Below are positions 1-4,722 of a DNA stretch of 64,000 nucleotides, in pieces. Positions within the stretch are counted from its first letter, which is position 1, and each line of letters starts with the position of its first letter. The position numbers were made by a program, and so were the translations under genes. The notes under the pieces are model-generated. The model searched no databases. It saw only the letters and a program-made list of their open reading frames with translations, and was not told the DNA's origin. This DNA comes from Lactobacillus sp. ESL0785 (lineage in GTDB: Bacteria; Bacillota; Bacilli; Lactobacillales; Lactobacillaceae), in the NCBI RefSeq assembly GCF_029395455.1, contig NZ_CP113916.1, positions 1,116,001 through 1,180,000 on the forward strand. The letters are read 5' to 3'.

Positions 1-950
1 GCATCAAAAGTTTGTGGGCCTTCACTACCATCAGTATTTTTACGTTTAGGCCAATCTTCTTCTAAAGTATCAGCGTTAGATAAAGTCATATTCTGATATG
101 GCACATGGTGCATCATTAAGTTCATCCGTGCTAAGTTGTATGTTGTCGTATTTAATTCTTGTCCATAAAAGCGGACCGGAATCTTTTTAGCAAGTTGCTT
201 ACTTAATTCACCTTGAACTGTTAATAACAGCGAGCCTGATCCCATTGCAGCATCATAGACACTAAATGGTTCACCATTATCTGTTGCAGATGCAGTTGCC
301 AATCTTGCTAAAACTTGTGAGACTTGGTGTGGTGTATAAAACTCCCCGGCTTTTTTACCAGAATTACCAGCAAACTTAGCAATTAGATATTCATAAACAT
401 CCCCTAGAATATCATGGCCAGATTCATCGTTATATTCAAACTGATCAACCAAATTAACAATCTTCATTAATGACTTAGCACGTTGATTAGTATTATTTCC
501 TAAACGACTGTTACCTAAGTTAATATCTGCAAAGACCCCGCTAAAATCTTGTTCGGCATCAGTATTAATCTTAGTGTTGTCGTTGAAGCGATTAAACATC
601 TCTTGAAAGTCTTCTGGCTTCAACGTATTATTATTGACTTTATCAGTAATTGACTGCCAAGTATATTCTGGCTCAATTGCATAACCTAGGTCTTCAGCAA
701 TTGCTGTTAGGAAGTCTTGTAGTTCATCTCCTACTGCTTGCTCTAGATAGTCTTTATTTAATTCTTCAAAAGTATTTCCAGTCAATAGATCACTTTTACG
801 TAAATGATCTAATTGATTTTCTGACAAATAACGATAAAACATGAAACCCAGAATATAATTACGATATTCATCAGCTGCCATATTTCCTCGCAATTCATTG
901 GCCATAGCCCATAATTTACTTGTAATTTCTTGAGCACGATTTTCACTCAT
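1..950 (-). CDS. hsdM: Type I restriction-modification methyltransferase subunit HsdM (3' end off the window)
   Basis: This is the N6-adenine methyltransferase subunit of a type I restriction-modification system; it methylates the site chosen by HsdS and so protects host DNA. About 316 codons are visible and the gene runs off the left edge. The ATG at 948-950 follows a GGGAGA ribosome site and starts MSENRAQEITSKLW. A helical HsdM_N-type region is followed by GEFYTPHQV and the SAM-binding motif I, DAAMGSGSLLL, near residue 232. The catalytic NPPF/Y motif should lie just past the edge and is not seen. The gene starts 11 bases after the hsdR stop, so the two are co-transcribed. The assignment is firm; completeness cannot be judged. 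Confidence 0.93.
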   Translation of the reverse strand, partial: MSENRAQEITSKLWAMANELRGNMAADEYRNYILGFMFYRYLSENQLDHLRKSDLLTGNTFEELNKDYLEQAVGDELQDFLTAIAEDLGYAIEPEYTWQSITDKVNNNTLKPEDFQEMFNRFNDNTKINTDAEQDFSGVFADINLGNSRLGNNTNQRAKSLMKIVNLVDQFEYNDESGHDILGDVYEYLIAKFAGNSGKKAGEFYTPHQVSQVLARLATASATDNGEPFSVYDAAMGSGSLLLTVQGELSKQLAKKIPVRFYGQELNTTTYNLARMNLMMHHVPYQNMTLSNADTLEEDWPKRKNTDGSEGPQTFD

Positions 951-961
951 TTGTTTCTCCC

Positions 962-3900
962 TTACTTATTTAACTGATCTGCAAACTTTTTAAATGATTG
1001 ACGCAACTTAGTATGATATTTAATTTTACTAAGTTCTCTAACCATTGTATCTTCTGCGTCATTTTGGTAATTCTGTTGGCCTTCCTGCACTATCTTGGAT
1101 AGACCGCCTTCAACATCCAAGTCATCTTGACCAACAACGTGTTTTTCTAATAGCTCGTTGATTCTTTGTGAATCAGTAATATCAACTAAGCCCCATTTTT
1201 TCTTAAAGTCTAGAATTTCTGTTCGATGGTTCTTCTCGGTATGATCTTTAATTAACTGTTTTACTTCTTCTGATAAAACCGGATATTTTTGAATATCTAC
1301 TTTATGAACCATTAAGTCATTAGCTACAGTTTGAACATCTTTAGCATATTTTTCATCTTCTAATTGGGCAATGAAGTTTTCAATTTGCAGTTTGGTTTTA
1401 ACAGCCTCGGTCATTTGCTCATCATTAACTTGATTTGCCAACTGTGCAATTAATTCATCGAGGTAGTCATAGTCAACGTCAATATCTTTGATATGTTCCA
1501 TTTCTAAAGTTAAGTCACTAACGTCCAAATGCCGACTTTTAGCTACACATTCTTTTATTTGACTAGTAAATGCACCTGTAAGTTTTGCCTCATCATCTTC
1601 AGACATTCCGAGCTCTTGCAATAATTTTTCTGGATGTTCCTCATCATATTTCTCATCCTGCTTAATTCTAGCCATTGAATGACTGTAATCATTCAGAGTG
1701 TTATACATTTGCTTTTGTTTAACTTCACTATGAGGAATATCATCAAAATTATTAGTTAACGTGGCTAATTCATCCACTGTCTTCTTTAGCGCTTCAACTT
1801 CTTCATCGTACGACTTTGCTAAAATTGAGGTTGCGGCAACTTCAGGTAATTCTTCTTGCACAAAAGCAGATTGCCTGTCAGCATAAGTTGCCAAAGCTTG
1901 CTTCATTAGCTTTTCAGCGTTCTTAGGCCAGCGATAATTAACAATGCGACCAAAGGGCTTTTTCTGCATATCATGAACCCTATTTGTTCTTGAATAAGCT
2001 TGAATCAGAGCAGACCCTTTCAGCGTTCGGTCAACATAAAGAGTATTTAATTCAGGAGCATCAAAGCCCGTCAATAATTGATCAACTACAATTACTAAAT
2101 CCAGATAATTTCGATCATCAGCACTGCGATTGAGCCTAGACATCAGGTCTTGTTCATAATCATCTACCTGATCATCTGTAAAATTGGTATTAAACAGTGA
2201 ATTGTAATTATCCATTGCTCTTCTTAAATTAGTATTATTAATTAATTGGGTATCATCATTACTTGTACTTTGACTAAAAGTTACGGCAACCTTTAATGGC
2301 TTAGCCATATTTGCCATCTGCTTATTAAATTCATCAAGATACATCATTGCCATTTCTGATGAAGAACCTTGACCAACATGAGTAGTCAGTAACGCGTTAT
2401 ATTGACCTTTATTGGAACGCTTGTCCCACTTTTCAAGAATATCCTCAACCACTTTTTCAACATGTTTAGGATTACGATCATAGACGCTTGGCTCCACCAT
2501 CTCATCCATATCATCGGGTGTTAAATTATTAATTCGCTCTTCAATTTGAGCTTGAGAAAACTTAGGGTATCTAAATTTAAAGTATCTTGGTAAATATTGG
2601 TTCTTCATCACTTCTTCTGATAAAGTCGTTTCAAAATCAACTTTAAAACCTAAGACGTTTTTATCAGAAATTGCGTCCTTGATGGTATAGATATGAAGCG
2701 GGTCTCCGAATACTTCTTGGGTAGTTGGACCTTTTTTGGCATCAAAATTTGGCGTTCCTGTATAGCCAACAAATGCTGATTTTGGAAATGCTGCCTTAAT
2801 CTTTTGCATCATGTCACCAGCAGTAGAACGATGAGCTTCATCCATGATAAAGACAATATTTTTATTAGACCCATAAACTTCTTTATGACTAGCAAGACTA
2901 GATAATTTCTGAATCGAAGTCACAATAATATTATTACTTTTAGACCTCAATTGCCGACCTAAATCATAATGGTTTTTAGTTTTAGAAATTGATCCACCAA
3001 CGGCAGTATCTGCTGTTGGATCATAGGATAAATACTGTTCAAAAGTTTGCTTAGTTAATGCTTTTCGATCAACTGCAAAAACAACTTTATCAACATTAGG
3101 TAATCTGGCAGCTAACCAAGCAGCTTTAAAGGAACTAATAGTTTTACCAGAACCTGTTGTATGCCAAATATAGCCAACCTCTTTAGGGTCAAAACCAAAG
3201 GAATGATGCCGTAATTTTTCTAAAATTTGTTTAGTTGCATATACCTGATATGGACGCATTACTTTAACATTTTCATGATTTTTTGTACCGTCTAAAATCA
3301 TAAAGTTAGTTGCCATTTCATGAGCCATCGGAATTGAAAGCATTTGTCTAGCAAACTCACGCCATTCATATACCGGATGGTTGTCTTTTTCTCGTTGCCA
3401 TCGAAAAGCAAAGTCTGTATTAAACTTATCCAAAGTGGTATTAGCCATATAACGTGCGTCATGCGGCGTTAATGCAACTAAAATCTGTACTGTTGAAAAA
3501 ATATCACTATACTGATTTTCTGAAATATATTGTTGCATCTGATTGAGTGCTTCTTTAGCATCATGTGCATCAGCTTTTTCTTCAATCTGAATAATCGGCA
3601 GACCATTAATTAACAAGGTAGTATCAAATCTTCGTCTTTTGCGACCTACTATTACAGGGTCACGCCAAATCTGATTAACAACTTGATAAACAGTATTACC
3701 AGCACCAATATGACTTTGATCAAAAACGGTAAGGAAAACATGGTTACCATTATCCAAATCTACTTCAACTTGGGAAATTCCATTAACTCCGTATAAAAAT
3801 TGCCCTGCTTCATAAGGTGTAGATAAATTCTTAATTTGCACCTTAACTTGGTTAAATTCATTAGTAGTTAGTGGCTGATCTAATTTATCTTGATTATTTT

Positions 3901-4045
3901 GTTCTAAAATTTGCTTAAAGTTCGCCCATAATTGTTCAGTCGTTTTTATTTTTGACATATAGGTCCATTGCTTGTCACCACCAATTTTAGTTAAATAATC
4001 AATTAATTCATCTTCAAATTTTAATTCGCTGTTTTCAATTGCCAT
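962..4045 (-). CDS. hsdR: Type I restriction endonuclease and DNA translocase subunit HsdR
   Basis: HsdR cuts unmethylated DNA after ATP-driven translocation, as part of the HsdR-HsdM-HsdS complex. From the ATG at 4045 it has 1027 residues, normal for the family. An N-terminal nuclease domain shows INGLPIIQIEEKAD near residue 150, a PD-(D/E)xK-type core. The SF2 motor follows, with TGSGKT near 297, DEAH near 401 and YTGTP. A reading frame open to 4069 would add MVLKQRRK, but the ATG at 4045 has its own AGAGGCG ribosome site and matches the usual start. It overlaps the end of the upstream half-length hsdS by 11 bases, which suggests translational coupling. No frameshift is seen. Confidence 0.95.
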   Translation of the reverse strand: MAIENSELKFEDELIDYLTKIGGDKQWTYMSKIKTTEQLWANFKQILEQNNQDKLDQPLTTNEFNQVKVQIKNLSTPYEAGQFLYGVNGISQVEVDLDNGNHVFLTVFDQSHIGAGNTVYQVVNQIWRDPVIVGRKRRRFDTTLLINGLPIIQIEEKADAHDAKEALNQMQQYISENQYSDIFSTVQILVALTPHDARYMANTTLDKFNTDFAFRWQREKDNHPVYEWREFARQMLSIPMAHEMATNFMILDGTKNHENVKVMRPYQVYATKQILEKLRHHSFGFDPKEVGYIWHTTGSGKTISSFKAAWLAARLPNVDKVVFAVDRKALTKQTFEQYLSYDPTADTAVGGSISKTKNHYDLGRQLRSKSNNIIVTSIQKLSSLASHKEVYGSNKNIVFIMDEAHRSTAGDMMQKIKAAFPKSAFVGYTGTPNFDAKKGPTTQEVFGDPLHIYTIKDAISDKNVLGFKVDFETTLSEEVMKNQYLPRYFKFRYPKFSQAQIEERINNLTPDDMDEMVEPSVYDRNPKHVEKVVEDILEKWDKRSNKGQYNALLTTHVGQGSSSEMAMMYLDEFNKQMANMAKPLKVAVTFSQSTSNDDTQLINNTNLRRAMDNYNSLFNTNFTDDQVDDYEQDLMSRLNRSADDRNYLDLVIVVDQLLTGFDAPELNTLYVDRTLKGSALIQAYSRTNRVHDMQKKPFGRIVNYRWPKNAEKLMKQALATYADRQSAFVQEELPEVAATSILAKSYDEEVEALKKTVDELATLTNNFDDIPHSEVKQKQMYNTLNDYSHSMARIKQDEKYDEEHPEKLLQELGMSEDDEAKLTGAFTSQIKECVAKSRHLDVSDLTLEMEHIKDIDVDYDYLDELIAQLANQVNDEQMTEAVKTKLQIENFIAQLEDEKYAKDVQTVANDLMVHKVDIQKYPVLSEEVKQLIKDHTEKNHRTEILDFKKKWGLVDITDSQRINELLEKHVVGQDDLDVEGGLSKIVQEGQQNYQNDAEDTMVRELSKIKYHTKLRQSFKKFADQLNK

Positions 4046-4628
4046 TTTTCGCCTCTGCTTTAATACCAATGATATTGTCTAAAGTTTGATACACAATCCT
4101 ATCTCTATTTAAAATATTTTTATACAATTGATTAGACTGTTTTAACTGGTCCACATATAACTTTCCAATTGTTTTTTGATTTTCAACGCTCAATTCCGGA
4201 ACAATAATTTCTTTGAGAATTTTTGTTGTATATTTAAAAACAATGCTACCCTGCAAATATTTTTTTATTTGTCGATCAAAACATCTACTTTCGTTTAATA
4301 GAAAAAGAATATATTCAATTGATACAGAAGTTCTAGGAATTAATTTAACAAAATTCTGTGTTAAAATGTATTTGTCGTGTTTCTGAGTTATAATGGCTGC
4401 TTTTCCACTTTGTAGGTTAAAAATCAAGTCACCTTGCTTAACCAGAACCACATCAGATGTAGTTTTTATTTGCTTTGTTTTGCTATTATTTGTTAGAGAT
4501 TGAAAAGTATCTTCTAAATAACAATTTCTATCATAAACAAAGTAAGATTTTGTATTACTTTTATTATTGGCTTCTAGTCTAGATTGTAATGAACCACTTT
4601 TAAATTCGAAAAGGTTCTTTAATTTCAA
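4035..4628 (-). CDS. hsdS: Half-length type I specificity subunit HsdS (single target-recognition domain)
   Basis: This 197-residue protein resembles one half of an HsdS subunit: one target-recognition domain followed by a conserved helical spacer (IIVPELSVENQ, then a Lys/Gln-rich helix). Normal HsdS is about 400 residues with two such halves. It starts with TTG at 4626-4628 behind an AAAGGAG site. It is the first gene of the operon, ahead of hsdR and hsdM, whereas hsdS usually comes last. Half-length HsdS proteins can work as homodimers that read a palindromic bipartite site; that is known for the family and only inferred here. It could instead be a remnant, or an accessory partner of a full HsdS outside the window. 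The frame is intact. Confidence 0.8.
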   Translation of the reverse strand: MKLKNLFEFKSGSLQSRLEANNKSNTKSYFVYDRNCYLEDTFQSLTNNSKTKQIKTTSDVVLVKQGDLIFNLQSGKAAIITQKHDKYILTQNFVKLIPRTSVSIEYILFLLNESRCFDRQIKKYLQGSIVFKYTTKILKEIIVPELSVENQKTIGKLYVDQLKQSNQLYKNILNRDRIVYQTLDNIIGIKAEAKNGN

Positions 4629-4649: not shown

Positions 4650-4667
4650 GTAATTTAGCTAAATTAC
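4650..4667. promoter_or_regulatory. Palindromic operator-like site 1 in the hsd control region
   Basis: GTAATTTAGCTAAATTAC is a perfect 18-bp palindrome (7-bp arms GTAATTT/AAATTAC around AGCT). It lies just downstream of the hsdS -10 box, around the expected transcription start, where a bound repressor would block initiation. The same arms recur at 4705-4722. No regulator gene is identified in the window. Confidence 0.6.
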
Positions 4668-4674
4668 ATAAATA

Positions 4675-4702
4675 ATTATAATACATTGTTCACTAAAATC
4701 AA
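4675..4702 (-). promoter_or_regulatory. Promoter of the hsdS-hsdR-hsdM operon
   Basis: On the minus strand TTGATT (4697-4702) and a perfect TATAAT (4675-4680) are separated by 16 bp. This is the only strong promoter-like pair before hsdS and it sits exactly between the two palindromes. Confidence 0.65.
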
Positions 4703-4704
4703 GT

Positions 4705-4722
4705 GTAATTTTTAAAAATTAC
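4705..4722. promoter_or_regulatory. Palindromic operator-like site 2 in the hsd control region
   Basis: GTAATTTTTAAAAATTAC is a second perfect 18-bp palindrome with the same GTAATTT/AAATTAC arms as the site at 4650-4667. The centres are 55 bp apart. It lies just upstream of the hsd -35 box and next to the likely -35 region of the divergent ArsC/Spx-family gene, so one regulator could act on both. Confidence 0.6.

Follow-up and report, generated by a model that had tools for sequence, protein, structure and literature searches.

The type I restriction-modification operon at the start of the window (the whole stretch of 64,000 nucleotides of Lactobacillus sp. ESL0785 analyzed here) is probably autoregulated by the product of its own first gene, a stand-alone half-HsdS protein that, judging from sequence comparison, would bind as a homodimer to two palindromes with identical arms on either side of the operon's promoter. 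A part that evolved to recognize foreign DNA appears in this way to have become the operon's control. The preliminary description of this DNA had proposed two sites for one dimeric regulator of a restriction operon, and that proposal now gains support of a computational kind.

The half-HsdS operon and its promoter

The half-HsdS gene (4035..4628, minus strand, TTG start), found as an open reading frame and by PADLOC, encodes a 197-aa protein of the HsdS_short type with one target-recognition domain (TRD) and one conserved region. The PADLOC match (Specificity_I, E=1.6e-11) comprises one domain only. The protein shows sequence homology to the HsdS (Methylase_S) specificity family and carries this single domain rather than two TRDs per chain. 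The gene had been described as hsdS; it does belong to the specificity family but is not an ordinary hsdS, and the full-length gene lies farther downstream. A profile of the half-HsdS family matches the HsdS structures 1yf2, 5ybb and 3okg, and the family also has weak matches (27–29 bits) to PDB chains 8vsq and 8vsr ("Esub1", about 200 aa); with the window protein alone as query, no HsdS structure was found. PF01420 is detected in 21 of 28 family members, the window member not among them, and the window protein has neither a Pfam match nor a helix-turn-helix NCBIfam match. Among 398 genomes of the class, the best 25 matches are frames of 190–234 aa, and the weaker matches listed comprise one short frame (G524, 218 aa) and others in frames of at least 371 aa. 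Stand-alone genes of 190–234 aa occur in 26 of these 398 genomes, and half-HsdS is, by sequence, a distinct family.

The next gene on the minus strand is hsdR (962..4069; Pfam and NCBIfam hsdR), whose ATG (MAIENSEL) lies at 4045, giving an 11-nt overlap with the end of the half-HsdS gene. It is followed by hsdM (minus strand), of which only the gene start is in the window (1..950; 551 aa in L012:11295-12950). The operon order is half-HsdS, hsdR, hsdM and full-length hsdS (402 aa), the last outside the window, and past it lie a RelB/YafQ-type toxin-antitoxin pair, an integrase and an inverted second hsdS. The locus L012:6927-11302 (window about -5073 to -698), which holds the full-length hsdS, the integrase and the oppositely oriented second hsdS, is likely an inversion (phase-variable) type I locus; since inverted repeats of 138 and 33 nt connect the two hsdS genes, the full-length specificity gene probably shuffles. 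The toxin-antitoxin pair sits inside this locus.

Across 70 half-HsdS loci (near-duplicates included, three loci without downstream sequence), the gene after half-HsdS is hsdM in 55 and hsdR in 10, with L046 and L099 as exceptions. Some loci have unusual neighbors. In L093:4156-7577, half-HsdS is followed by tandem HsdM-like proteins that differ from each other (457 and 512 aa, each a Pfam N6_Mtase), and in L085:1-3590 by two different HsdM-like proteins in tandem, recognized by phmmer only. L047:9135-15166 encodes half-HsdS and an HsdM-like protein, then proteins without a Pfam match; this locus adjoins a Cap4-like nuclease and a weak AAA match, and has twin palindromes of its own with ATATTTC arms.

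Direct reading of the sequence bore out the two perfect 18-bp palindromes reported earlier, 55 bp apart from center to center, and the location of the hsd promoter between them on the minus strand. The predicted -10 (TATAAT, 4675..4680) and -35 (TTGATT, 4697..4702) are separated by a 16-bp spacer. The candidate downstream operator, GTAATTTAGCTAAATTAC (4650..4667; strandless, arms GTAATTT/AAATTAC, center AGCT), starts 7 bp past the -10 and covers about +1 to +18 of the predicted hsd transcript. The candidate upstream operator, GTAATTTTTAAAAATTAC (4705..4722; strandless, same arms, center TTAA), ends 2 bp short of the -35. The first gene of the operon is thus accompanied by two dyad-symmetric putative operators at its own promoter, and the window holds no further match to the palindrome motif even at up to two mismatches.

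In a genome-wide search of the kind that the preliminary description had suggested, the motif GTAATTTNNNNAAATTAC matches without mismatch at two places among 1,694,003 bases, both at this promoter; five more copies appear at one mismatch, versus two for a reversed control. At least one exact copy is found in 21 of 395 genomes of the order, the window's genome included, and these searches bear out the earlier view that such a pair is unlikely to arise by chance. G417 and G420 each have exactly two exact copies, both at the half-HsdS promoter. In a search of seven genomes, the half-HsdS carriers G201, G522, G627 and G719 had no exact copy of the window motif and G700 had one; the exact motif is missing from four of six half-HsdS carriers besides the window's genome and G420.

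Another point raised beforehand was whether strains with the same operon keep the sites, and G417, G1189 and G420 do. The palindromes of G417 are identical to those of the window in all 36 bases. Its half-HsdS is 95–96% identical (dN 0.017, dS 0.071; 8 synonymous and 8 non-synonymous changes) and its full-length HsdS only 36% identical. The full-length HsdS is therefore an unlikely reader of the palindromes, since it has diverged this far while half-HsdS remains 96% identical and both operators are unchanged. In G1189, half-HsdS is identical to the window protein at 190 of 197 positions, the palindrome at 4650–4667 is identical, and the counterpart of 4705–4722 has the same arms and a changed center. 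Lactobacillus pasteurii (L044, G420) carries the twin motif as in the window, 71 bp apart, with a half-HsdS about 30% identical to the window's and a different neighbor gene; contig NZ_CAKD01000010.1 of this species carries the two palindromes of G420 at equal spacing.

Joint control of the divergent ArsC/Spx gene, also suggested earlier, did not hold up. The gene is present at this place in G417 and G1189 as well, and G420 has another neighbor. G417 lacks 19 bp that include the arsC-side TATAAT, with both palindromes unchanged. In locus L004 (genome G010, where no half-HsdS match was found), the DNA upstream of arsC matches the window only from about 5–10 bp right of the second palindrome. 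We rejected co-control on these grounds, the DNA shared with this half-HsdS-free genome starting to the right of both palindromes, and from the comparison with L004 and G417 the contact between the right palindrome and the supposed ArsC/Spx -35 looks incidental.

Twin sites and half-HsdS genes in other genomes

Computation, from both the DNA and the protein side, shows the sites themselves and their geometry, how they accompany half-HsdS in many genomes, and how their arms agree in a lineage-specific way. A scan of 257 Gb of genomes for two palindromes with six-base arms, 26–56 bp apart, returned 24 twin-motif places. Twenty-one of these are directly upstream of a half-HsdS frame (L086, one of them, is G420 itself; the frames of L080, L086 and L095 are partial, cut by the locus end), and they are distributed over Lactobacillus, Companilactobacillus, Periweissella, Oceanobacillus, Lentibacillus, Vaginisenegalia, many Lachnospiraceae and others. 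One further place (L099) is 1.5 kb from a solitary half-HsdS. The remaining two were discarded as spurious, L090 being a tandem repeat and L098 having one palindrome inside a coding frame. Half-HsdS is the likely regulator, since it accompanies 22 of the 24 twin sites. L099, from Levilactobacillus namurensis (L099:4122-6323), has a half-HsdS without hsdM or hsdR within 8 kb, and its twin sites are located not at the half-HsdS promoter but at that of an 83-aa ORF without a Pfam match. A search for twin GATATT/GCTATT sites gave no match in 39 genomes including G743, for whose own second site the pattern was unfit.

For the converse approach, 45 promoters were picked by half-HsdS protein match alone. 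This set omits the window, L043, the DNA-scan loci, repeats and near-repeats (L049, L050, L058, L103–L105, L111, L112, and L038, which nearly equals L046), the weaker matches L041 and L042, frames of more than 260 aa and matches with E above 1e-10; from the half-HsdS-sized frames of one search, only those in 30 retrieved loci entered. The 45 promoters are 73% AT and contain GTA-N12-TAC 30 times, versus 1.04 in dinucleotide shuffles and 1.4 when 250,738 bases of flanking DNA from these loci are scaled to the same length. Other GTA/TAC spacings from 0 to 30 occur 0–4 times each, with the exception of N9 (nine matches, eight of them in L059–L065). In the upstream regions of L059–L065, GTA-N9-TAC partly overlaps the N12 sites, and in several of them the upstream site lies within a longer hairpin-like inverted repeat. 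At least one GTA-N12-TAC is found in 17 of the 45 promoters and at least two in 13.

When the 45 promoters were tested, without a preset motif, for two palindromes with four half-sites in common, 23 passed at p<=0.05 and 18 at p<=0.01. The failures include L051, L052, L068, L117 and L134, which have no clear pair; outside the set, L165, L167 and L168 have none either. Also outside it, and seen later, L151 has a pair, and L155/L167 and L163/L168 do not. L045, L076, L108 and L113 pass the test with odd arms, which may be chance. Plasmid loci, taken blind to the promoter as 5 of 19 records, have the pair in L133, L135 and L137 and lack it in L134 and L136. The half-HsdS promoter of L136 (L136:2783-2983, a Vagococcus plasmid) has two 19-bp palindromes with N5 centers and unlike arms, TCGCAAT and GTATGTT, which fall outside the usual geometry. 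L134:5986-8732, from a Leuconostoc gasicomitatum plasmid, encodes half-HsdS and, after it, two methylases (C5 cytosine, then D12 adenine), with no hsdM annotated nearby and no twin sites upstream of half-HsdS.

We sought a sigma-70-like pair between the sites in 33 well-scored promoters, those of the DNA scan and the window included; four gaps were too short, which left 29 scorable promoters. At least 9 of 12 hexamer positions match in 24 of them, with a mean of 9.7 versus 7.6 in letter shuffles. By the best pair, the upstream site ends 0–3 or 9–11 bp before the -35 in all 29, and the downstream site starts 2–9 bp after the -10 in 17 and 14–23 bp after it in 12. By analogy, this layout is that of a repressor that would cover the start region and touch the upstream edge of the promoter.

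The arms vary by half-HsdS group while the 7-N4-7 geometry is constant. They are GTAATTT in the window group, GCTATTT in L069 (a search for whose relatives gave a family of one genome only), GATATTT/GTTATTT in L070–L073, GAAATAT/GTAATAT in L066 and L067, and ATATTTC in L047. In a staphylococcus-like group the arms are of GTAG type, the inner positions are less strict, and most promoters fail the four-half-site test. Arm identity is 88% between the two sites of one promoter versus 63% between promoters. Among the 18 protein-found promoters with p<=0.01, half-HsdS identity is correlated with arm similarity (rho 0.49; 0 of 5000 permutations), a correlation that is not fully independent, as common operon ancestry contributes to it. 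Because this ancestry feeds the correlation, a contrast among three loci is cleaner evidence: L066 and L067, from different families, have half-HsdS proteins 79% identical and GAAATAT/GTAATAT arms in common, whereas L054, from the genus of L066, has a half-HsdS 31% identical and the arms GTAATTC, GTACTTT, GTAATTT and GTATTTC.

Proposed autoregulation and alternative readings

Under the proposed autoregulation, the first gene of the operon would give a stand-alone half-HsdS, two copies of which would pair so that their two TRDs read one palindromic operator, GTAATTT-N4-AAATTAC here and with GTA-N12-TAC as its commonest core. One operator would adjoin the -35 on its upstream side, the other would cover the transcription start, and the dimer on both would shut or throttle its own promoter. 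The downstream hsdR-hsdM-hsdS genes would be co-regulated through the half-HsdS promoter, and the upstream site might perhaps activate at low dose, as in C-protein switches. We infer homodimeric binding, the negative sign of the regulation, and half-HsdS rather than another factor as the reader. The solitary half-HsdS of L. namurensis, with a twin site at another promoter and no hsdM or hsdR within 8 kb, counts for half-HsdS as reader. Counting against autoregulation are the 22 of 45 promoters that miss p<=0.05 and the 32 of 45 without two GTA-N12-TAC sites.

The palindromes could instead be methylation targets of a half-HsdS2-HsdM2 complex, with the methyl mark or the binding of the whole complex setting expression. 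An engineered half-HsdS with HsdM methylates palindromes according to the available part of PMC6158711, HsdS_short affects methylation in its own system (PMC10030836, as far as that text is available), and hsdM is the usual next gene, as described above. We nevertheless consider this reading unlikely: only two exact sites per genome, in three genomes, would make a pointless restriction specificity, and L099 has its half-HsdS without hsdM within 8 kb. The outer adenines, the ones open to methylation, are spaced 10 or 12 bp, as against 8–9 bp by the same count in the enzymes of PMC6158711, in the part available; this argument is weak because 10 bp is close to that range.

It is less probable still that half-HsdS only stabilizes the modification complex and that the reader of the palindromes is an unrelated regulator with its gene elsewhere. 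Support for such a role comes from the staphylococcal hsdRSMS systems, which encode HsdS_short, a half-HsdS-like protein of 191 aa whose function was left open in the accessible text (Schiffer et al. 2023, PMC10030836). In E. coli, under a foreign promoter, methylation was spoiled when HsdS_short was left out, with mRNA at 0.36–1.23-fold (hsdM) and 0.52–1.06-fold (hsdS) of the full construct. A methylation defect at those levels, which concern mRNA and not translation, points to a role of HsdS_short in the enzyme complex and counts against a purely transcriptional one. HsdS_short overexpressed alone was toxic, and complementation failed for that reason (PMC10030836, same portion). However, an unlinked regulator does not account for arms that change with the half-HsdS lineage or for the 21 of 24 twin sites in 257 Gb that are located at half-HsdS, and it would have to be common to distant Bacillota without other exact sites in three genomes.

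That the downstream palindrome acts as an mRNA leader hairpin, with the upstream one a by-product, is very improbable. The palindrome near +1 does fold as a hairpin in the predicted leader, but at about -2 kcal/mol only and with a leader z-score of -0.34, and the upstream palindrome lies outside the predicted transcript with its arms conserved nonetheless. Chance in AT-rich DNA, to which the composition of the 45 promoters and the 21 of 395 genomes with a copy might point, has a negligible probability and was rejected, as it is contradicted by three genomes with exactly two copies each, both at this promoter, by the 257-Gb scan and by the GTA-N12-TAC excess of 30 observed to about 1 expected at one spacing.

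Returning to autoregulation by half-HsdS, we tentatively suggest a broader idea, namely that half-HsdS represents a new transcription factor class, a palindrome-reading homodimer with a single TRD per chain, which HsdM titrates off the operators. Half-HsdS would then also join HsdM, the activity of the promoter would report free modification subunit, and this gauge would balance restriction and modification once the mobile operon enters a new cell. A protein that binds DNA alone and also joins HsdM would fit the operators as well as the methylation and toxicity effects of HsdS_short. The half-HsdS of L099 appears to have left restriction behind, near another gene with the same operators. In the window's operon, a fixed half-HsdS beside a shuffling full-length hsdS suggests one controller for an enzyme of changing specificity. 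To our knowledge, how type I systems, especially mobile or phase-variable ones, avoid host killing or imbalance is poorly known, RptR being one answer. The candidate operators give half-HsdS a testable function, with predicted binding sites for several lineages, and if the proposal is true, the HsdS fold joins the transcription-factor folds.

Comparison with known systems

The C proteins of type II restriction-modification systems, which are Xre-type helix-turn-helix proteins, are small autoregulators encoded first in their operon with two operators at their own promoter. The half-HsdS differs from them in consisting of a TRD and a conserved region of the type I specificity family, and the first gene here has no Xre-type helix-turn-helix match.

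Some type I systems are controlled by RptR, a 9-kDa protein acting through TAGCTA direct repeats (PMC12255303). The earlier statement that dedicated control is unknown for most type I systems thus holds only in part now, as far as the available part of that source goes. Like the proposed half-HsdS regulator, RptR is a homodimeric repressor encoded by the first gene of a type I island, with repeated sites at its own promoter; it binds 6-bp TAGCTA, whereas the sites here are 18-bp palindromes and the protein is HsdS-like. We rejected RptR-type control for the window since TAGCTA occurs once, in the center of the palindrome at 4650–4667, and not in that at 4705–4722, instead of at least twice at the promoter, and the first gene encodes a 197-aa half-HsdS.

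No report of a half-HsdS binding its own promoter, and no paper on the Esub1 chains, was found in the open-licence literature searched. Half-HsdS proteins that dimerize and read a palindrome, as proposed here, are known from engineered M-half-S enzymes, in which half-HsdS homodimers with HsdM recognize palindromes (PMC6158711), and from the half-HsdS systems NgoAV and EcoDXXI (PMC10030836). From what these texts present, half-HsdS guides methylation in those systems; here it is proposed to control transcription beside a full-length HsdS. As regards transcription factors, the available part of PMC6158711 goes no further than comparing half-HsdS dimers with examples such as BmrR. BlihIA from Bacillus licheniformis (PMC12429846), likened here by description, is a type I system that encodes a half-size HsdS besides a full-length one, and its authors speculate on a regulatory role via hybrid HsdS dimers; the portion available describes no operator or transcription control.

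The closest parallel is the staphylococcal HsdS_short. The window protein resembles it in its length of about 190 aa, in its place in an hsd operon beside hsdM or hsdR, and in the separate full-length hsdS of that operon, as described in the available text of PMC10030836. The next gene is hsdR after the window half-HsdS and hsdM after HsdS_short of S. xylosus. HsdS_short of S. xylosus TMW 2.1324 matches the window protein by tblastn with E 3e-11 and 28.5% identity over 79%. In that text, the authors noted a promoter, left palindromes unmentioned and speculated on a stabilizing role in the enzyme complex. On the plasmid of this strain, two GTAG-type palindromes, GTAGTTTTAGTAAACTAC and GTAGAAAAACACAACTAC, are located 55 bp apart upstream of the HsdS_short gene.
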